Shown here piece after piece: positions 8,254 to 59,948 of a DNA stretch of 64,000 nucleotides. The DNA comes from Vicingaceae bacterium (lineage in GTDB: Bacteria; Bacteroidota; Bacteroidia; Flavobacteriales_E; Vicingaceae): assembly GCA_026003395.1 (NCBI GenBank), contig BPHE01000004.1, forward strand, positions 62,001 to 126,000, read 5' to 3'. How positions within the stretch are numbered: the stretch's first letter is position 1; every line of letters begins with the position of its first letter. The notes below the pieces were generated by a model, which was not told the origin of the DNA, did no database searches, and saw nothing but the letters and a program-made list of their open reading frames with translations. The position numbers and the translations under genes were made by a program.

Positions 8254-9375
8254 TTAAAAACGGTTTCTTATATACAAATAAACATAAAACCACTTATTAA
8301 CAAATTCCCAAAATAACGAAAATAAAAAAATATCTGCCACTTTTAATTTTTTCATTGTAGAATAAAATACGGGTAGAACAAGTATATACCGTAAAATTAA
8401 TACAGTCAATGCTAAATAAATATGGTTTTGGTAAAAAAATAATGAAATCAACAATAAAGCAAACATCAAATGGTAATTTATATGATGATATGCAAGTAAA
8501 AATTTATGTATGGTTTTATATCTCGAGCCGGTTGTCGAATGCCGTCTTTTTTGAATTAACCAATGGGTAAGATTATTCTTGGGAATGCTGAAAACAAAAG
8601 CATCTTCGGCAAGGCAGACAGTAGTGTTATGACGGTTTGCCGCCTGATTGACAAACAAATCATCATCGCCCGATTCTAAATCAAGGTGGGTGGCAAAACC
8701 TTTTTTGTTGAAAAAAAGTGTTTTTTTGTATGAAAGGTTTCTTCCTACTCCCATATAGGGTATTCCGGTTTTTGCAAATCCCAAATATTGCATTGCAATA
8801 TAATATGTGTCGAATCTAATCCAGTCATTCAACCATCCTTTCTGCCGAATGTAAGGAGAATAGCCCAAAACTATTTCGGTATTATTTTGATAAGAAGCCA
8901 TCATGTGCTTTATCCAGTTTTTTGATGAAGGCCTGCAATCGGCGTCTGTCAAGAGCAAGTGATTGTGTTGGGATTTTTTGATTCCAATGGTGAGCGCTCT
9001 TTTTTTGCTGAAATATTTTTCGTCGTTTTCTGTGGAAAAGGTATATTTCAAATTTGGATAAATCACGGTCAACCCTTTTAATATATCTTCCGTATCGTCT
9101 GTGCTGGCATCATTGACAACAATTACTTCAAAATCAGGATAGTTTTGTTCGAGAATCAAAGGAAGATTATTGATGATATTGTCCCTTTCGTTTTTGGCGC
9201 AAATGATTATGGAGACAGGAGGCCATTGTTCAACCTCTTCAATGGGGCGGTCTTTATGTAAGACTATTTTGTAAAAAATCGCATAGAAATATATTATTTC
9301 CGTCAATAAAGCAAACAAAAATAAAATGCTAATCCAATCGAGTGGGGTTGATTGTAAATGTTCTATCAATGACAT
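8254..9375 (-). CDS. Family 2 glycosyltransferase with membrane segments
   Basis: 373 aa from the ATG at 9375. Upstream in-frame codons would add a charged 25-residue leader in front of the first membrane segment. One N-terminal membrane segment is followed by a GT-A catalytic domain with SIIICAKNERDNI, VVNDASTDDTEDI, the metal-binding LLTDADCRP, and LESGDDDLF. The late QKRRHSTT resembles the QxxRW region. Two or three membrane segments close the protein. This is the plan of processive or lipid-linked GT2 enzymes acting at the inner membrane. Sugar donor and product are unknown. It heads the operon that continues into the sigma factor and rsmG. Confidence 0.85.
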   Translation of the reverse strand: MSLIEHLQSTPLDWISILFLFALLTEIIYFYAIFYKIVLHKDRPIEEVEQWPPVSIIICAKNERDNIINNLPLILEQNYPDFEVIVVNDASTDDTEDILKGLTVIYPNLKYTFSTENDEKYFSKKRALTIGIKKSQHNHLLLTDADCRPSSKNWIKHMMASYQNNTEIVLGYSPYIRQKGWLNDWIRFDTYYIAMQYLGFAKTGIPYMGVGRNLSYKKTLFFNKKGFATHLDLESGDDDLFVNQAANRHNTTVCLAEDAFVFSIPKNNLTHWLIQKRRHSTTGSRYKTIHKFLLAYHHINYHLMFALLLISLFFYQNHIYLALTVLILRYILVLPVFYSTMKKLKVADIFLFSLFWEFVNKWFYVYLYIRNRF

Positions 9376-9636
9376 GTGAAAACAAATTTTGTGTAAAATT
9401 AAATTATGTTTTATATTTTCTGTTGATAAAGTCAAATTTTCATCAGACAAATTTTCAACATACCAACAGGTTTAAAATGTTACGAAACATAAACTAATTG
9501 ATTTCAATTAAAAAGAAAACCGGTTAAAAAAATCTTTAAATCATGTTTGGCAATGCAAGAATGTTGGTTAATTAATGGTAATTTGTCAGGAAATGCCATA
9601 TTTTCATACTATATTGCAAAGAAATAATAAAGCATC

Positions 9637-10098
9637 ATGAAAAATATCATATTTATACCGGTTAAATTCCTGTTATTTTTTACGGTAATTGTCATGTTCA
9701 GTTCACTTTTTTGGCTTAAAGACATAGTGTTTTTAGATGAAAATGATTCATATGAACAGATTTATTTTGAAAAAGGAAATTGGGACGAAATCACTCAAAA
9801 AGCAAGAGATTTAAAAAGAAATTTATTTGTTTTTGTTATGGATTCTGCCAATGATGACAGTCAAAGGATGATGAAAAGTGTTTTCACTGAGATGAATGTC
9901 TCAAGGTTTTACAACGAAAATTATATCAATGTGTTAATACCGGCCAATTCCAAAAAGGGAAAAGAGTTAGTCCACCAATACAGAATATTGCAATTTCCTC
10001 ATTGTATTTATATGCATTACAATGGAAAAACAAAACACCAATTGTTTGGTTATCAAAATCCCGCCATTTTGTTGAAAATCGGGGAGAAGTATAAATGA
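9637..10098 (+). CDS. Membrane-anchored thioredoxin-fold protein without a CXXC motif
   Basis: 153 aa. An N-terminal hydrophobic segment (about 7-27) serves as anchor or signal. The rest has the layout of a DUF255/thioredoxin-like domain: a WDEITQKARDLKRNLFVFVM start, a helix (QRMMKSVFTEMNVSRFYNENYI), then FPHCIYMHYNGKT with the cis-Pro region before a final helix. The position expected to hold CXXC reads DSANDDSQ, so no redox pair is present. It is therefore probably a structural or chaperone-like member. It is followed by a secreted peroxiredoxin-like gene. Confidence 0.65.
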   Translation: MKNIIFIPVKFLLFFTVIVMFSSLFWLKDIVFLDENDSYEQIYFEKGNWDEITQKARDLKRNLFVFVMDSANDDSQRMMKSVFTEMNVSRFYNENYINVLIPANSKKGKELVHQYRILQFPHCIYMHYNGKTKHQLFGYQNPAILLKIGEKYK

Positions 10099-52228: not shown

Positions 52229-52346
52229 TATCAATTTTCATCCTTTTACGTATACAAAAAATAAACAAAAGTTTTCAACAATTGTTAATAAATTGCGAAT
52301 TTTGTAGTTTATGTAGATAATTGAAGCATATTTGCTTTGCAGGAAA

Positions 52347-55300
52347 ATGAAAGGAAAATATATACATATCATCTTATTGATTCTAATTTTCACATTTCCC
52401 GGAGCCCTCATTACATTGAGAGCTCAAAGCCCCACGTTGGATCTTAAAATAGAAATTAAAGACGAAACTTACAATCAAAAAATGGCCAATGCCGAGGTAG
52501 TTATTTATAAAAACGGAGCGCCATATAAAAAATTAACCACCGACGATAAAGGGAGATTATTTGTGCAAGTTCCTCTGGGAGCAGATTACAAAGTTGAGTT
52601 TAAAAAAAATGGATATGTGACCAAACATATAATCATCGATACCAAAAACATTCCGTCCGAAGATGCCAGTTATGGTTTTGAATATCCCATGGAAGTCAAT
52701 TTGTTTGAAGACATCCCCGAAATTGATTTCAGCATATTACAAAAGCCCGTTGCCATTTTGAAGTTTGACAACAAAACTGGCTTCTTTGAATATGACAAAG
52801 ATTATACAAATTCCATTCTCAAACAATTGGAAGAACTTAAAAAGGCCTATCAGGAAAAAATGAAAGCACTGGCCGAACAAAGAAAAAAAATGGAAGCAGA
52901 ATATAACGCGGCTATTAATGCAGGTAACAAGGCATTTAACGAAAAAAAATATGCCGAGGCAAAAGCACAATTCGAAAAAGCCCTATCAATCAAACCTAAT
53001 GAAATATATCCTGCCAATAAAATCAAAGAAATTGAAGAACTATTAAAACAAATGGCCGAAAAAGACCGGCAATACAATGATTTGATACAACAAGCCGATC
53101 AACTTGCACAGAATGAAAAATATCCTGAAGCCATTCAGCTATACAAACAGGCCCTCGCCATAAAACCAGGTGAAACATATCCTCAAAATAGAATCAAAGA
53201 ATTGGACGAGCTAATTAAGAATAAAGAAAAAATTGAAAAACAATACAACGACCTGATAGCCAAAGCAGACAATCAATTTAAGGCACAAGATTATGAAAAC
53301 GCAAGGGCTAACTACGAAGAGGCCTCAAAACTGAAACCTTCTGAAAAATATCCACAGGACCGTATTGCCGAAATCAATAAAATTCTTGTTGAGTTGAGTG
53401 CTAAAGAAGAACAATACAAAAATGCCATTCAAAAAGGAGATGACTTGTATAAACAACAAAAATTCGAAGAAGCCATTAAAGCATATCAAGAAGCTTTGAC
53501 AATCAAACCAAACGAAACGTATCCACAAAACCAGATAAAACTTGCACAAGCCCAATTAAACGAAAGAAAAGAAAAACAAAAACAATATGAATCGCTCATT
53601 GCAGAAGCCGACAAACTCTTTAACAACAAACAACTCATACAGGCAAAAAGTGTTTATAAACAGGCCCTGAATGTTTTGCCAAATGAAAAATATCCCGCCG
53701 ATCAGATTGCTTTGATCGACAAAACCCTTGCCGAAACCGAAGAAATCAACAAAAAATATGATCTGGCTGTCAAAGAGGCAGATGCGGCTTTTTCATCAAA
53801 AAATTACCAACTCGCCAAACAAAAATATGAAGAAGCATTGCAATTGAAGCCAAACGAATCATATCCACAACAACAATTGCAGAAAATAGAACAGATTTTA
53901 GCCGAGGAAAACAAAAGAAATCAAGAATACAATCAATGGATAGCCAAAGCAGACGAGGCTTTTGGGAAACAATCGTGGGATGAAGCCAAAAAGTATTATG
54001 AAGAATCTTTAAAGATTAAAGATGACCCCTATCCCAAAAACAAAATTCAAGAAATTGAAAATATCAAAAAGCAAAAATTGGCTGAAGAAGCCGAAAAACA
54101 AAAAATTGAAGAACAATACAAAAAAATTATTGCCCAGGCCGATATGTATCTTGGACAAAAAAGTTACGAAGCGGCCAAAGCAAAATACAACGAAGCTCTC
54201 GGATTGAAACCACAAGAAACTTACCCAAAAGAAAAAATTGAAGAGATAGACGCTATTCTTGCAAAATTGGCAAAAGAACAAGAAGAAATTTTGTTGAAAG
54301 CTGAAAAAGAAAAACAACAAAAAGCCGAATATGAAGCGTTGATAGCATCCGGCGACAATAAAATCAAATCAGGTGATTACCAGGGTGCAAAGTCGGATTT
54401 TTTAAAAGCCCTTGAAATTTTTCCGAAGGAAAACTATCCTCAGTTGAGATTAAAATATATCGAAGAACAACTGGCCAAGAAAGCCAAAGAAGATTCTCTG
54501 GCTGCCGAAGCCGAACGAAAAAAGCAAGAATATTATGAAGCCCTCATTAAAAAAGCCGATGCCGACTTTGATGCCGGTCAATACGACAAAGCAAAAGAAA
54601 ACTATGTAATGGCTTCGATGGTTAAACCTGATGAAGAATATCCCAAACAACGTTTGAAAGAAATCGAGAAAATATTATTAGAAAAAACTCTGGCCGAAGA
54701 AAAAGAAAAACAAAATGAACAACTCAAACAACAAAAAGAAAAAGAATATAAGGACTGGCTGGCAAAAGGAGAGAAATTTTTAGGACTGAAAGATTATCAG
54801 GAAGCACTCAATGCTTTTACAAAAGCTTCGGAAATCAAACCGGAAGAAAACTATCCCAAAGAACGCATTGCATATATCAACGATTTGTTGTCAGAATTGA
54901 ACCGGGCTAAAGAAGAACAAGACCGGATCAACAAAGAATATTCCGAATTGATATCAAAAGCCGATATGACATTCAACCAACAAAAGTATCAAGAAGCATT
55001 GGAAATGTATCAACAAGCATCGAATCTTAAACCTCAAGAAATTTATCCCATTGAAAAGATCAAAGAGATTAATAAGATTCTCGAAGAATTGGCCTTCAAA
55101 CAAAAACAAAAAATGGAAGATTCCCTCAAAATGGCCGAACTGCGCCGTCAATACGATGAAATTATTCAGCAGGCCGATCAATCATTCAACAATCAAAATT
55201 ACGACCTTGCAAGAAAGCAATATTTACAGGCATCTGCCATTTTACCAAATGAAACCTATCCGAGAGACAAGATCAACGAAATCGACAATATCTTGAAACA

Positions 55301-56090
55301 ACATGCCCAAAAGGTCAGAGATTCGTTGGAACTTGCCGAAAAACGTATGCGCTATAATGAGATTATTCGTTTGGCCGATATTTCGATGTCTCAAAAACTT
55401 TATCAAAATGCACTTAAAAAGTATCAGGAAGCTCTCGAGTTATTGCCGGGAGAATCTTATCCTCAAAAACAAATCGATAAAATCAATCTATTGCTCAGCA
55501 GACAAAACAACACAAATGATGAAGACAATAATGCCATAAGAGTATCGGTGACAAAAGACAAGGAAAATGAACTTGACAATATGTTTGCCCAGATGTGGAA
55601 TGCAAGGGATAAGTCAAAGGTTGAAGAAATGGAAAAGAAAATAGAAAACTTGTACAAACAATATGAAGAACGCGCACAGAAAGCCAATAACAAGATTGAT
55701 GAAAACTACTACTTGATTCAACAAATGGAAAAATCAATCGAAGAAAGAAACAAACGTCTCAACCAAATCCATCAGGATAATTTCAAAAAAATGCAAGAAT
55801 TTGAACAATATCTCGCGAATTTAGATCAACACCTCAGACAAAAGGAAGAAGAAAATATACAAGCTAAATACCGCCAACAACAAGAGTTGGAGAAGAATTT
55901 TGAAGAGTTTGCCCGTAAAAAAGAAAAAGAATATCAACATCAATACCGGGGAATTTTATCAAGAAATAAAAATCTATGGAGAAAAACAACAACAATGGGC
56001 CCAAAATGCCGACCAAATACGGTTGGCCAATCAAGAAAGATTGAAAGATTTGGAACAATATCAACAAGAGATGATGAAAAGAGGGAATGA
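52347..56090 (+). CDS. Giant secreted TPR-repeat protein, N-terminal part before a frameshift
   Basis: Starts at the ATG of 52347; the frame opens 15 bases earlier with TTG. A signal peptide (KYIHIILLILIFTFPGALIT) precedes a CNA_B/carboxypeptidase-regulatory-like beta domain (about 30-125: NAEVVIYKNGAPYKKLTTDD, VPLGADYKVEFKKNGYVTKH). From about residue 175 there are 14 tandem units of about 57-72 residues. Each is a TPR-like hairpin (Y..LI..AD..F....Y..A...Y..AL.LKP.E.YP...I.EI) followed by a charged helix that lengthens towards the C-terminus. A coiled coil follows. In-frame coding character is lost at about 55947; the last 47 codons to 56090 are shadow. Function is unknown; periplasmic or surface scaffold is my inference. 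Confidence 0.82.
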   Translation: MKGKYIHIILLILIFTFPGALITLRAQSPTLDLKIEIKDETYNQKMANAEVVIYKNGAPYKKLTTDDKGRLFVQVPLGADYKVEFKKNGYVTKHIIIDTKNIPSEDASYGFEYPMEVNLFEDIPEIDFSILQKPVAILKFDNKTGFFEYDKDYTNSILKQLEELKKAYQEKMKALAEQRKKMEAEYNAAINAGNKAFNEKKYAEAKAQFEKALSIKPNEIYPANKIKEIEELLKQMAEKDRQYNDLIQQADQLAQNEKYPEAIQLYKQALAIKPGETYPQNRIKELDELIKNKEKIEKQYNDLIAKADNQFKAQDYENARANYEEASKLKPSEKYPQDRIAEINKILVELSAKEEQYKNAIQKGDDLYKQQKFEEAIKAYQEALTIKPNETYPQNQIKLAQAQLNERKEKQKQYESLIAEADKLFNNKQLIQAKSVYKQALNVLPNEKYPADQIALIDKTLAETEEINKKYDLAVKEADAAFSSKNYQLAKQKYEEALQLKPNESYPQQQLQKIEQILAEENKRNQEYNQWIAKADEAFGKQSWDEAKKYYEESLKIKDDPYPKNKIQEIENIKKQKLAEEAEKQKIEEQYKKIIAQADMYLGQKSYEAAKAKYNEALGLKPQETYPKEKIEEIDAILAKLAKEQEEILLKAEKEKQQKAEYEALIASGDNKIKSGDYQGAKSDFLKALEIFPKENYPQLRLKYIEEQLAKKAKEDSLAAEAERKKQEYYEALIKKADADFDAGQYDKAKENYVMASMVKPDEEYPKQRLKEIEKILLEKTLAEEKEKQNEQLKQQKEKEYKDWLAKGEKFLGLKDYQEALNAFTKASEIKPEENYPKERIAYINDLLSELNRAKEEQDRINKEYSELISKADMTFNQQKYQEALEMYQQASNLKPQEIYPIEKIKEINKILEELAFKQKQKMEDSLKMAELRRQYDEIIQQADQSFNNQNYDLARKQYLQASAILPNETYPRDKINEIDNILKQHAQKVRDSLELAEKRMRYNEIIRLADISMSQKLYQNALKKYQEALELLPGESYPQKQIDKINLLLSRQNNTNDEDNNAIRVSVTKDKENELDNMFAQMWNARDKSKVEEMEKKIENLYKQYEERAQKANNKIDENYYLIQQMEKSIEERNKRLNQIHQDNFKKMQEFEQYLANLDQHLRQKEEENIQAKYRQQQELEKNFEEFARKKEKEYQHQYRGILSRNKNLWRKTTTMGPKCRPNTVGQSRKIERFGTISTRDDEKRE

Positions 56091-57087
56091 AAAATATATT
56101 GAAAAATTGCAGCAATACGAACAAATGATACAGGAATTGGATGAACAACACGCCAAATTATTGGCGGCTTCTGAAGAAAAGCGGCTTCAAAATCTTGAAA
56201 ATATTCAACAATTTCAGCAGCATTTAGAAGAACTCGACCGGCAAAAACGGGCAAACGATATTGTCAAATGGCAACAAACACAGAAAAAGATTGAGGAATG
56301 GCAGGCCACTCTTCAACAATATCAACAGAATCAAGAAACAAACATTGAACGTAACCGTCGACAAATTCGTCAACTGGAAGAAAACATTGCCATCAGGGCA
56401 TCTAAAGGAAATCAACTGCATCAAAAGAATGTGCAAAACCAACAATTGTTTGAACAGGCTTTGATCAGGATGCAGCAAGAAAGAGATGAATACTACAGTC
56501 GGAAACAACAATTGGCTTATCGCGATTTACAAGATAAAATGAAAGGATGGGAGACCGCCCGTCAAGAGAGAGCCGAAATGTTTATGTACAGAAATGTTTC
56601 TAACTTGCAGAAATATGAAGAAATGCTGGCTAAAACACACGAAAATTATGTAAACAAACATAATCAGCGTCGCGAAAAATATTATCAGGACATAAAAGAA
56701 ATTGCCGAGCAAATGGAAAAGTATAAAGCCAAAAAAGATAAAGAATACGAATTGAAATTGAAAGAAATCGAAAGAAAAACCCGTGAATATGAAGAATTTC
56801 AGCACAATCTTGCCGAATTGTCTTATGCAAAAATCAAAAACTATAAAATGGACTATTATCGCGGCGAGCCCAAACCCAAAACAAGCGAACTTTCCGGAAA
56901 ATACCCACAAGGAGTGGTTGAGGAGGTAAAACCATTTGAGAACGGTACTATCTTGAGAAGAATAGTGACCAATGGTTCACAGGTTGATGTTTATGAAAAA
57001 ATATACTATAAGTGGGGAGGTGTTTATTACACCAAAAACGGACGTCACATTACTCAAGCCATTTGGGATGCCGAAACGTTAAAATGA
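55900..57087 (+). CDS. C-terminal part of the giant TPR/coiled-coil protein (after frameshift)
   Basis: The genuine coding part starts at about 55948 (GEFYQEIKIYGEKQQQW) and continues the coiled coil of the upstream frame exactly if one C at 55947 is removed; the codons from 55900 to 55947 are shadow. It gives about 310 residues of Gln/Glu/Lys-rich helix (QRLKDLEQYQQEM-type heptads, QIRQLEENIAIRA, KKDKEYELKLKEIERK). A compact 85-residue C-terminal domain ends in SQVDVYEKIYYKWGGVYY and RHITQAIWDAETLK. The joined protein would be about 1,579 aa. No stand-alone start with a signal is present. Confidence 0.75.
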   Translation: MKSLPVKKKKNININTGEFYQEIKIYGEKQQQWAQNADQIRLANQERLKDLEQYQQEMMKRGNEKYIEKLQQYEQMIQELDEQHAKLLAASEEKRLQNLENIQQFQQHLEELDRQKRANDIVKWQQTQKKIEEWQATLQQYQQNQETNIERNRRQIRQLEENIAIRASKGNQLHQKNVQNQQLFEQALIRMQQERDEYYSRKQQLAYRDLQDKMKGWETARQERAEMFMYRNVSNLQKYEEMLAKTHENYVNKHNQRREKYYQDIKEIAEQMEKYKAKKDKEYELKLKEIERKTREYEEFQHNLAELSYAKIKNYKMDYYRGEPKPKTSELSGKYPQGVVEEVKPFENGTILRRIVTNGSQVDVYEKIYYKWGGVYYTKNGRHITQAIWDAETLK

Positions 57088-57142
57088 AAAAGGTGTGTAA
57101 ACTTAAAATGTTTTACTACCTCACTCCAAACTCCTCTCCTTT

Positions 57143-57401
57143 CAAAGGAGCCTGATTTTTTCATTTAACCTGTTTTACTACCTCACCCCGCCCTTACGGG
57201 CACCCCTCTCCTTTACAAGGAGAGGGGCAGGGGAGAAGTCATATAAATTCTTTTATTTTTTCCAACACTTGTTGGATGTTTTTCAAATCCTCATTTCTAA
57301 AACGCAAAACCTTTAATCCAAGTGATTGAATAATCAGGTCGCGCTGTTGATCGTATTCCTTTGTAAAGTTATGTATTGCACCATCCAACTCTATAACCAA
57401 C
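57143..57401. repeat. Direct repeat copy 1 (259 bases), period 284
   Basis: Same sequence as 57427-57685. It begins CAAAGGAGCCTGATTTTTTC, contains a CTCACCCCGCCCTTACGGGC segment and the inverted CCCCTCTCC...GGAGAGGGG pair, and runs into the 3' part of the DUF559 gene. Confidence 0.9.
57239..57401 (-). pseudogene. Truncated duplicate of the DUF559 gene (C-terminal 53 codons)
   Basis: Within direct repeat copy 1, the minus strand encodes the same C-terminus as the intact gene at 57523 (KEYDQQRDLIIQSLGLKVLR ... KIKEFI), from VIELDGAIHNF on. It is cut at 57401, where unrelated CTCACCC sequence begins. No start codon is present. Confidence 0.85.
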
Positions 57402-57426
57402 ACCTCACCCTAAACCCCTCTCCTTG

Positions 57427-57685
57427 CAAAGGAGCCTGATTTTTTCATTTAACCTGTTTTACTACCTCACCCCGCCCTTACGGGCACCCCTCTCCTTTAC
57501 AAGGAGAGGGGCAGGGGAGAAGTCATATAAATTCTTTTATTTTTTCCAACACTTGTTGGATGTTTTTCAAATCCTCATTTCTAAAACGCAAAACCTTTAA
57601 TCCAAGTGATTGAATAATCAGGTCGCGCTGTTGATCGTATTCCTTTGTAAAGTTATGTATTGCACCATCCAACTCTATAACCAAC
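57427..57685. repeat. Direct repeat copy 2 (259 bases)
   Basis: Second copy of the 57143-57401 sequence, 284 bases downstream. It covers the 3' end of the intact DUF559 gene and its downstream repeat. Confidence 0.9.
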
Positions 57686-57879
57686 GATTTTTCAGCACAA
57701 TAAAAATCGGCTATAAAAAATAAGTATCTACCTTGATAACCGTAAATGATAGGTCTTTGACGGTAAAATTTTAAGCCCTCAAATTTTCTATTCCGCAAAA
57801 CTTCCCACAACTTCCTTTCGTCAGGAGTTGAGTTTCTTCGTAGTTGCCCGGCTAATTTTGTTATATCAGATTTTTTCAT
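57523..57879 (-). CDS. DUF559 endonuclease-like protein
   Basis: 118 aa. DUF559 family (PD-(D/E)XK/Vsr-like nuclease fold): LRRNSTPDERKLWEVLRNRK at the start, then GLKFYRQRPI, FFIADFYCAEKSLVIELDGA with the Asp and Glu-x-Asp of the nuclease core, and the late VLRFRNEDLKNIQQVLEKI. Such genes are spread widely among Bacteroidota, often beside CTCACCCC-type repeats as here, and may move with them. Activity is inferred only. A truncated second copy lies directly downstream. Confidence 0.88.
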   Translation of the reverse strand: MKKSDITKLAGQLRRNSTPDERKLWEVLRNRKFEGLKFYRQRPIIYGYQGRYLFFIADFYCAEKSLVIELDGAIHNFTKEYDQQRDLIIQSLGLKVLRFRNEDLKNIQQVLEKIKEFI

Positions 57880-57919
57880 TTATTGGGTTTTTCCACCTCA
57901 CCCCAAACCCCTCTCCTTG

Positions 57920-58004
57920 CAAAGGAGCCTGATTTTTTCATTTAACCTGTTTTACTACCTCACCCCGCCCTTACGGGCACCCCTCTCCTTTACAAGGAGA
58001 GGGG
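57920..58004. repeat. CTCACCCC-type dispersed repeat, copy 3 (85 bases)
   Basis: Identical for 85 bases to the first part of copies 1 and 2 (CAAAGGAGCCTG ... GAGAGGGG), including the palindrome CCCCTCTCC/GGAGAGGGG. It lies upstream of the DUF559 gene and left of the Kiwa module. Confidence 0.85.
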
Positions 58005-58025
58005 GCGGGGGTGAGGTTTTAGCCA

Positions 58026-58067
58026 TCAATTCAACGAATACACCAACCTATCTATCTCCCGCTCCCA
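58026..58067 (-). pseudogene. Short remnant of a restriction-modification-type C-terminus (left of Kiwa)
   Basis: Minus-strand reading WEREIDRLVYSLN followed by a stop. It matches the REID.LVY.LY..T.EE segment found at the extreme C-terminus of many type II restriction-modification enzymes. A similar remnant lies right of kwaA. Confidence 0.4.
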
Positions 58068-58084
58068 TTAGGTGTTGTTTTTTA

Positions 58085-58114
58085 AGATGTAAAAGAATAA
58101 ATTCTTTTACATCT
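58085..58114. repeat. 14-base perfect palindrome overlapping the kwaB stop codon
   Basis: AGATGTAAAAGAAT, two bases, then its exact complement ATTCTTTTACATCT. It could act as a 3' hairpin of the kwa transcript. No T run follows on the minus strand, so it is not a standard terminator. Confidence 0.6.
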
Positions 58115-58967
58115 ACTTGTTTTCCATTTTCCTTTTGGAATTTGTTTCATAAATAAATTTACTTATGGGTGATTTATACAAGTCATCATTTAAAAAATTG
58201 ATTAATTTTTCAATATCTTTTTTTTCTTGCGGAAAAAGAATCTTTGATTCTGATTCATCAAACATATTAGGTAATTCCAATTCTCTGGCATATTTAATAA
58301 CTTCATTAAAATTATCCTGTACTTTATTTAAGACACCATTTTTAATAATTTGAAAAATTTTTTTTCTATACCTTGAATTTATAATGCTGTAGTCAATGTT
58401 ATCACATTCTTTAAAGATTGTATGCCTTTTGAAAATATTTATTTCTTTGTCTGTTGCTTCTCTAAAATATTTACTCAAATCAAAAATTTTTGATGCGTTA
58501 TGATATGAGGTAAATAATAATTTATCTTCATTTTTCAAAAACATTGCATCAATTTTTGCATCTATAATTAAGCCCTTATTATCTATCTTTGAAAATGTTT
58601 CTGATGAATATATCAAATAAAGTTTTTCTGTTTTGATTATTTTTCTTGAGTCGAATGTTTGAAAAATAATTGATTCTTTGTTTAAGAAAATTATGTGTTT
58701 AATGTCATATATTTCTTCTTCTTTTAGTAATGGTAAATTAATAATATTTTCGTAATCTTTCAATGGAAAATCGAAGTTATTTATTTCCAGTACTTCATTT
58801 TCATTGGGTTTATACTCACCATCAAATTTAATCTGTTTTGCTTTATAAAAAAAGTTAATAGATTCACTTAAATATTTTGAGAGTTGATTTTGTAAATGAT
58901 CAGATAATGAAATTCGTCTTAGATTATTTTTTTCAGTTTTACTATTTAATTTACATAATATATTCAT
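58113..58967 (-). CDS. kwaB: KwaB-like protein (DUF4868) of a Kiwa anti-phage system
   Basis: 284 aa, no membrane segment. The central part has the DUF4868 pattern: IIFLNKESIIFQTFDSRKII, then SSETFSKIDNKGLIIDAKID (the phi-D-x-x-I-D element), AMFLKNEDKLLFTSYHNASKIFDL, then a helical C-terminal half (IFKRHTIF, SRYRKKIFQIIKNGVL). KwaB of the Kiwa system is a DUF4868 protein that binds DNA and works with the membrane protein KwaA. The gene begins five bases after a four-helix membrane-protein gene, as in known Kiwa operons. The length is slightly below the usual ~310 aa. The call rests on pattern plus gene order. Confidence 0.68.
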   Translation of the reverse strand: MNILCKLNSKTEKNNLRRISLSDHLQNQLSKYLSESINFFYKAKQIKFDGEYKPNENEVLEINNFDFPLKDYENIINLPLLKEEEIYDIKHIIFLNKESIIFQTFDSRKIIKTEKLYLIYSSETFSKIDNKGLIIDAKIDAMFLKNEDKLLFTSYHNASKIFDLSKYFREATDKEINIFKRHTIFKECDNIDYSIINSRYRKKIFQIIKNGVLNKVQDNFNEVIKYARELELPNMFDESESKILFPQEKKDIEKLINFLNDDLYKSPISKFIYETNSKRKMENK

Positions 58968-58972
58968 ATTGT

Positions 58973-59473
58973 CTATTTTTCTAAAATAATATAGTTGGTT
59001 AATTGAACTACATGTTTTATCTGTTTGGTATTAACCAATGTTTTTTTTGTGATTAGTATAAAACTCGTCCCTCCATTAATTTTTATTTCATATTGATGGT
59101 ATCCGAGAATACCTAACATCGGATTGAAATGATATAGATTAGTTGTAAAAACAATAATGGAAAATAATGCAAATAAAAATAATATCATCGAGTTATCTAC
59201 ATCTAGTAATGGTAGTAAATATGTAAAAATAAAAATAATGCTTTCTTGATCAGCAGAAGAAACCTCATCGATTTCTATCGGAATTTTCTCTAATTTTTGA
59301 TTGGCTATTTTTATAATGAAATATAAAATTAAAAGTAAAAGTAATGCGAGTATCAAGAAAATAAGACCATCACACCAATTATAGTTTTTTTTGAACTCTT
59401 TAAACCAGAATGTAAGCAGCACTGGTGAAAGAGAAGTAAATACAAATATTATTTGCACTAATTTGCCAAACAT
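58973..59473 (-). CDS. kwaA: KwaA-like membrane protein of a Kiwa anti-phage system
   Basis: 166 aa from the ATG at 59473. The longer frame begins with TTG (59506) inside a remnant of another gene. Four membrane helices: about 5-22, 33-53, 80-97 and 100-120. They are followed by the short cytosolic end NPMLGILGYHQYEIKINGGTSFILITKK, split here as the NPMLGILGYHQYEI strand and GGTSFILITKK. The NPxLxxxGYxxYEV end after four helices resembles KwaA, the phage-attachment sensor of Kiwa. kwaB follows after five bases. Confidence 0.62.
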   Translation of the reverse strand: MFGKLVQIIFVFTSLSPVLLTFWFKEFKKNYNWCDGLIFLILALLLLLILYFIIKIANQKLEKIPIEIDEVSSADQESIIFIFTYLLPLLDVDNSMILFLFALFSIIVFTTNLYHFNPMLGILGYHQYEIKINGGTSFILITKKTLVNTKQIKHVVQLTNYIILEK

Positions 59474-59492: not shown

Positions 59493-59573
59493 TTATTCTC
59501 TCTCAATTATCCTCACCTCCTCCTCCGTTAATTCATACAGCGAATATACCAAATTATCTATTTCCCGCCCCCA
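59493..59573 (-). pseudogene. Remnant of a restriction-modification-type C-terminus (right of Kiwa)
   Basis: Minus-strand reading WGREIDNLVYSLYELTEEEV, then RIIERE and a stop, bounded by a stop upstream. REID.LVY.LY.LTEEE.. is the usual last segment of TaqI-like/type IIG restriction-modification enzymes. Only 27 codons remain, so this is the tail of a lost gene or a mobile fragment. Confidence 0.55.
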
Positions 59574-59948
59574 TTAGGTAGTATCTACCTCTCCCCAACC
59601 ATACGGGCACCCTTCTCCTTGCAAAGGAGAGGGGGCAGGGGAGAGGTCATATAAATTCTTTCTTGACTTTGATACTTTCTATTGTTAAATAACTGATAAT
59701 CAGAAATTACGATTTTTTTGCTGTGCACTACATTTCTAATCTTGTATGTATTTTTCCATCTCTTTTATTTCAATAACATCTCTCTTTTATTCTGAATGTT
59801 TTCAGTATGTTTTCCTGTCTTGCTGATGTTTCCCTTCAAATAATACATCCCTCCGTTATATTGCCGGATAAAATTTAAAATAATTAAATTTATAGACCAA
59901 AGATTAGTTTTTTTATTATTTTCGTGAAATAAGCAAAATTTTCGTTTA
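59574..59948. other. Intergenic region with a fourth CTCACCCC-type repeat copy
   Basis: 59588-59661 contains a diverged copy of the repeat (CCTCTCCCC, ATACGGGCACCC, CTCCTTGCAAAGGAG, GAGAGGTCATATAAATTCTT), sharing its end with the repeat at 57143-57401. The rest, 59662-59948, is AT-rich and I see no gene; the msrB promoter should lie near 59920. Confidence 0.6.

Follow-up and report, generated by a model that had tools for sequence, protein, structure and literature searches.

A diverged, intact-looking kwaA-kwaB gene pair in the genome of a Vicingaceae bacterium

Layout of the locus

Two small genes, kwaA and kwaB, lie next to each other on the minus strand in the window, the 64,000-nucleotide stretch of the Vicingaceae bacterium contig BPHE01000004.1 that was analysed here. 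kwaA precedes kwaB on the same strand, which is the gene order of Kiwa, and the two genes of 166 and 284 codons, five bases apart, that the initial annotation had described are both present where it placed them. The features of the locus are the following.

59496..59573, minus strand: 26-codon remnant, WGREIDNLVYSLYELTEEEVRIIERE followed by a stop, corresponding to the C-terminus of a putative type IIG/Eco57I-like restriction-methylase gene and matching ORF ends in relatives
58973..59473, minus strand: kwaA, ORF with ATG start at 59473, 166 aa
58968..58972, minus strand: spacer between kwaA and kwaB, exactly 5 bases from the coordinates of both ORFs
58113..58967, minus strand: kwaB, ORF with ATG start at 58967, 284 aa
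58085..58114, minus strand: perfect 13-bp hairpin that overlaps the kwaB stop, a candidate 3' end structure by sequence reading, without a clear T-run on the minus strand
58029..58073, minus strand: second, truncated direct copy (84%) of the remnant, WEREIDRLVYSLN followed by a stop, just downstream of kwaB; a direct repeat by sequence reading

Neither reading frame is broken by stops or frameshifts. For kwaA, a TTG 11 codons upstream of the ATG is a possible alternative start, but the PADLOC match starts only at the ATG.

Family membership and predicted folds

The first protein is matched by the PADLOC KwaA model PDLC00221 at 7.4e-49 over residues 1-165, with 13 other KwaA models also matching, and the second by the PADLOC KwaB model PDLC00222 at 1.4e-58 over residues 7-281, with three other KwaB models also matching. 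Both matches lie far outside chance expectation and cover the proteins at nearly full length, as expected if the pair is Kiwa. The NCBIfam models agree in kind at lower scores, that for KwaA being top-scoring on the first protein (2e-16, 60 bits, under the 100-bit cut-off) and that for KwaB on the second (31.5 bits, under the 200-bit cut-off), in keeping with the earlier description of the system as diverged.

The DUF4868 likeness claimed for the second protein fared unevenly. A Pfam scan gives no meaningful match to either protein, and PF16162, the former DUF4868 that is now named KwaB in Pfam, is silent on the window KwaB; the PADLOC KwaB models that match it at 1e-58, on the other hand, carry DUF4868 in their description. 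PF16162 scores above cut-off in the KwaB relatives L055 (1.2e-10), L032 (4e-11) and L040 (2.2e-06). In addition, hhalign pairs a profile built from nine window-type KwaBs with one from four longer canonical KwaBs over 261 columns at 98.9% probability; two of these four were scanned with Pfam and both are PF16162-positive. Because relatives match PF16162 and a profile link to canonical KwaB exists, the absent Pfam match most likely reflects divergence and not membership of another family. None of the aligned KwaB relatives exceeds 38% identity to the window KwaB. With a profile of window-type KwaAs the solved KwaA (9mrg/9o0i) is recovered at 4e-08, and PDB searches with the single KwaB sequence and with a KwaB profile return no Kiwa chain.

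Two short motifs picked out by the initial annotation are real and align with Kiwa proteins. The 'NP-L---GY--YE' motif of KwaA reads HFNPMLGILGYHQYE and aligns with YANPTLALFGFKLYR of the solved KwaA 9mrg, and the 'IID-KID' stretch of KwaB aligns with LxLDxKLxA, which is conserved among relatives with an invariant last alanine.

AlphaFold monomer models, for which shallow alignments of window-type proteins served as input, reach a pLDDT of 82.8 for KwaA and 76.5 for KwaB, the latter dropping to low confidence in residues 112-127 and 267-284. Hydrophobic stretches of KwaA fall at residues 4-30, 30-61 and 86-116, and its model, in line with the proposed four-helix membrane protein, contains helices at residues 2-30 (kinked), 33-60, 76-85 and 94-111 and a beta domain after them, an arrangement that equals that of the solved KwaA. 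In VIA-align the KwaA model superimposes onto 9mrx_A with a Z of 17.8 and an rmsd of 3.0 over 164 of its 166 residues (best unrelated chain Z 5.7), and the KwaB model onto 9mtn_K, tied with 9nyu_A, with a Z of 12.5 and an rmsd of 6.7 over 242 residues (best unrelated Z 2.9). The high rmsd of the KwaB superposition suggests a different domain placement or model error. Foldseek searches of the PDB return only Kiwa proteins below an E of 0.001, at 3e-07 for KwaA and 1e-06 for KwaB, the next KwaB match being at 0.34; solved Kiwa proteins are therefore the only ones that either model matches well.

The beta domain of KwaA (residues 62-166; 58973-59290) also shows weak matches, of Z 4-5, to many OB-fold proteins including RPA, Ten1 and IF1, a likeness that in the predicted model could simply be a common arrangement.

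The solved Kiwa systems (PDB 9mrx, 9mrg, 9mrr, 9mtn, 9nyu) share with the window pair the two genes, a four-helix KwaA with a beta domain, the KwaB fold and the NP-x-L...G(Y/F)..Y motif of KwaA. They differ in that the window proteins are shorter (166 versus 195 aa for KwaA, 284 versus about 315 aa for KwaB), are only 11-16% identical to them in structural alignment and include a KwaB that is not detected by PF16162.

Flanking sequences and origin of the pair

The pair is markedly poor in GC, kwaA having 25.9% and kwaB 22.2%, compared with 36.6% for the window. A KwaB search of 60 genomes of the same family and class found only the window's own KwaB and none in the 59 others; in one genome of the same family, G010, the Kiwa present belongs to the longer type. 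This low GC and the absence from the 59 other relatives, which agree with the earlier description of the locus as an accessory patch, point to probable horizontal acquisition of the pair, into a site where a type IIG-like restriction-methylase gene has left putative remnants.

Some 20 bases separate the restriction-methylase remnant WGREIDNLVYSLYELTEEEVRIIERE from the start codon of kwaA downstream, and 45-bp direct copies flank the pair at 58029-58073 and 59535-59579. A further 15 related genomes contain endings like that of the remnant, in most cases at the close of ORFs of about 1000-1300 aa, and one long parent protein with such an ending has Eco57I, TaqI_C and N6_Mtase domains. From these matches the flank copies are read as probable 3' remnants of a type IIG-like gene, and we infer that kwaAB inserted at, or once lay downstream of, a type IIG-like gene that has since been lost. 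A role of the 45-bp repeats as insertion-site duplications of a transposon was considered and is unsupported, as they encode the restriction-methylase end. The window genes adjoining the pair include none that was recognised as a phage gene.

The surrounding sequence is rich in repeats. A C-rich palindromic repeat (CTACCTCACCCCGCCCTTACGGGCACCCCTCTCCTTTACAAGGAGAGGGG...) is present in several copies at 57118-58017 and 59585-59647 and has more than 100 matches in the genome, among them some twelve copies arrayed in L020 with a spacing of about 155 bp. Embedded among these repeats is a DUF559 gene (57523-57879, minus strand; Pfam 2e-31) with a partial copy at 57239-57403 (minus strand), and a 284-bp tandem duplication (57118-57401/57402-57685, 99%) copies the 3' end of this gene; the gene is possibly linked to the spread of the palindromic repeats. 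Further away, a large, repeat-rich gene for a coiled-coil protein (52332-56090) seems to be split by a frameshift, since within the overlap 55900-56090 (plus strand) its reading carries on in a different frame, that of a second ORF (55900-57087).

Relatives, restriction operons and the nature of the system

The order kwaA-kwaB is kept in the relatives wherever both genes are covered. The KwaBs closest to that of the window, at 32-38% identity, are those of the Pseudomonas filamentous phage PfAC02a and the viral contigs L055 and L056, which share the gene order and few-base spacing of the window pair but are phage-encoded, whereas no phage genes were recognised beside the window pair. The PfAC02a pair is annotated as Kiwa (OR790968; PMC11878078). 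Scans of viral sequences with the window KwaB and with an L003+L005 alignment gave no matches, plasmid searches with three other KwaBs found only the Bartonella plasmid L032 or nothing, and no close relatives of the window pair were found here. In L064 (G752:C63) a related kwaA-kwaB pair adjoins an integron integrase-like gene, as judged by eye, a context that suggests that kwaAB can travel as a cassette.

Eight related kwaAB pairs lie within type I restriction operons and belong to the same KwaA/KwaB subfamily as the window pair (PADLOC PDLC00222/PDLC00225 models).

L032: Bartonella plasmid, kwaAB in type I operon
L040: Chlorobiaceae MAG, kwaAB in type I operon
L039: Hydrogenophilales MAG, kwaAB in type I operon
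L081 and L036: Rhodothermales or same-class genomes, kwaAB in type I operon
L077, L078 and L038: Poribacteria genomes, kwaAB in type I operon

The order is hsdS-kwaA-kwaB-hsdR in every locus that is covered on both sides, in some cases with extra genes before hsdR; the contigs of L036 and L038 end before hsdR and hsdS, respectively. Methylase_S, HsdM and HSDR_N domains were confirmed by Pfam in representatives of the nested loci, and the kwaA start overlaps the hsdS end by 7 bases in L003, L036, L039 and L040. L039 also has a HipA kinase-like gene, recognised by eye, between kwaB and hsdR (8385-9692). On the KwaB tree the restriction-nested label needs four changes, three of them forced by well supported branches, so that more than one gain or loss of nesting took place; a history of one gain followed by losses is also compatible with the tree. 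The sample of loci is small, about 20 gathered by similarity. The nested arrangement was not found described in literature on Kiwa and type I restriction, in which coverage of subscription papers and preprints was thin. The recurrent nesting is the only unexpected result of this analysis and one that a specialist might not expect. The window pair itself was considered as part of such an operon, but in contrast to the nested loci it has no hsd genes beside it, and none occur anywhere in the final 14 kb of the window.

Taken at face value, the nesting could mean that kwaAB of this branch is not a stand-alone system but an accessory that works with a co-encoded restriction enzyme, of type I in the relatives and formerly of type IIG here. 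In its fuller form, kwaAB would be a plug-in module repeatedly inserted between hsdS and hsdR and translationally coupled to hsdS, its membrane sensor and non-cutting DNA binder joining the restriction enzyme on injected DNA, and the window pair would derive from such a module through loss of a type IIG partner. The eight nested loci on several tree branches, the 7-base overlap of kwaA with hsdS in four loci and the restriction-methylase remnant directly upstream of the window kwaA speak for such a partnership. However, no restriction genes flank the window pair, nor are there any near the phage relatives L033, L034 and L055-L057 or near L074, L075 and L076. Defence genes cluster in any case, so nesting alone is no proof of joint function, and both the accessory role and its fuller form are judged unlikely.

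A decayed Kiwa, with genes that are readable but non-functional and carried along among repeats and decayed pieces of restriction genes, would account for the restriction-methylase 3' remnants on either side of the pair, the neighbouring DUF559 gene with its tandem partial duplication and the very low GC of both genes. Frames that span the profiles at full length with no stops or frameshifts, and the tight 5-base spacing that has been retained, argue against decay and make it quite improbable. That the second protein goes uncalled by Pfam and that the NCBIfam scores stay under cut-off might still point to a different system, in which a KwaB-like DNA-binding protein is joined to an unrelated membrane partner; with the first protein a KwaA by profile and fold and the second a KwaB by Foldseek, VIA-align and hhalign, this is scarcely credible. 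The window pair is very probably a diverged, intact-looking Kiwa system, with kwaA and kwaB supported as such by both the PADLOC models and the predicted structures.

In characterised Kiwa, membrane tetramers of KwaA act as the sensor of phage infection, and KwaB binds the injected DNA and blocks replication and late transcription without cleavage (PMC12904381); a cloned Streptococcus thermophilus Kiwa gives protection against phages (PMC11514479). By analogy with these systems, the window KwaA would assemble into inner-membrane tetramers that detect the attachment of a phage or the injection of DNA, and dimers of KwaB would bind to KwaA. At the site of infection KwaB would then bind the incoming phage DNA, the replication and late transcription of which would be blocked with no cutting, and the pair may in this way protect its host. 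For the Kiwa of E. coli an involvement of RecBCD has been reported. In a further difference from the solved Kiwa systems, the host of the window pair has no detectable RecC, as the family PF04257 was not detected in its genome while the E. coli positive control matched, and the involvement seen in E. coli therefore cannot operate unchanged here.

As an ordinary diverged Kiwa, the pair adds a subtype to a Bacteroidota family in which no other instance of it occurs in the genomes sampled. The Pfam and NCBIfam models miss or under-score the window-type branch, so that surveys relying on them undercount Kiwa. If the nesting of its relatives in type I operons is functional, one could test directly whether a membrane-sensing DNA binder and a restriction enzyme cooperate.
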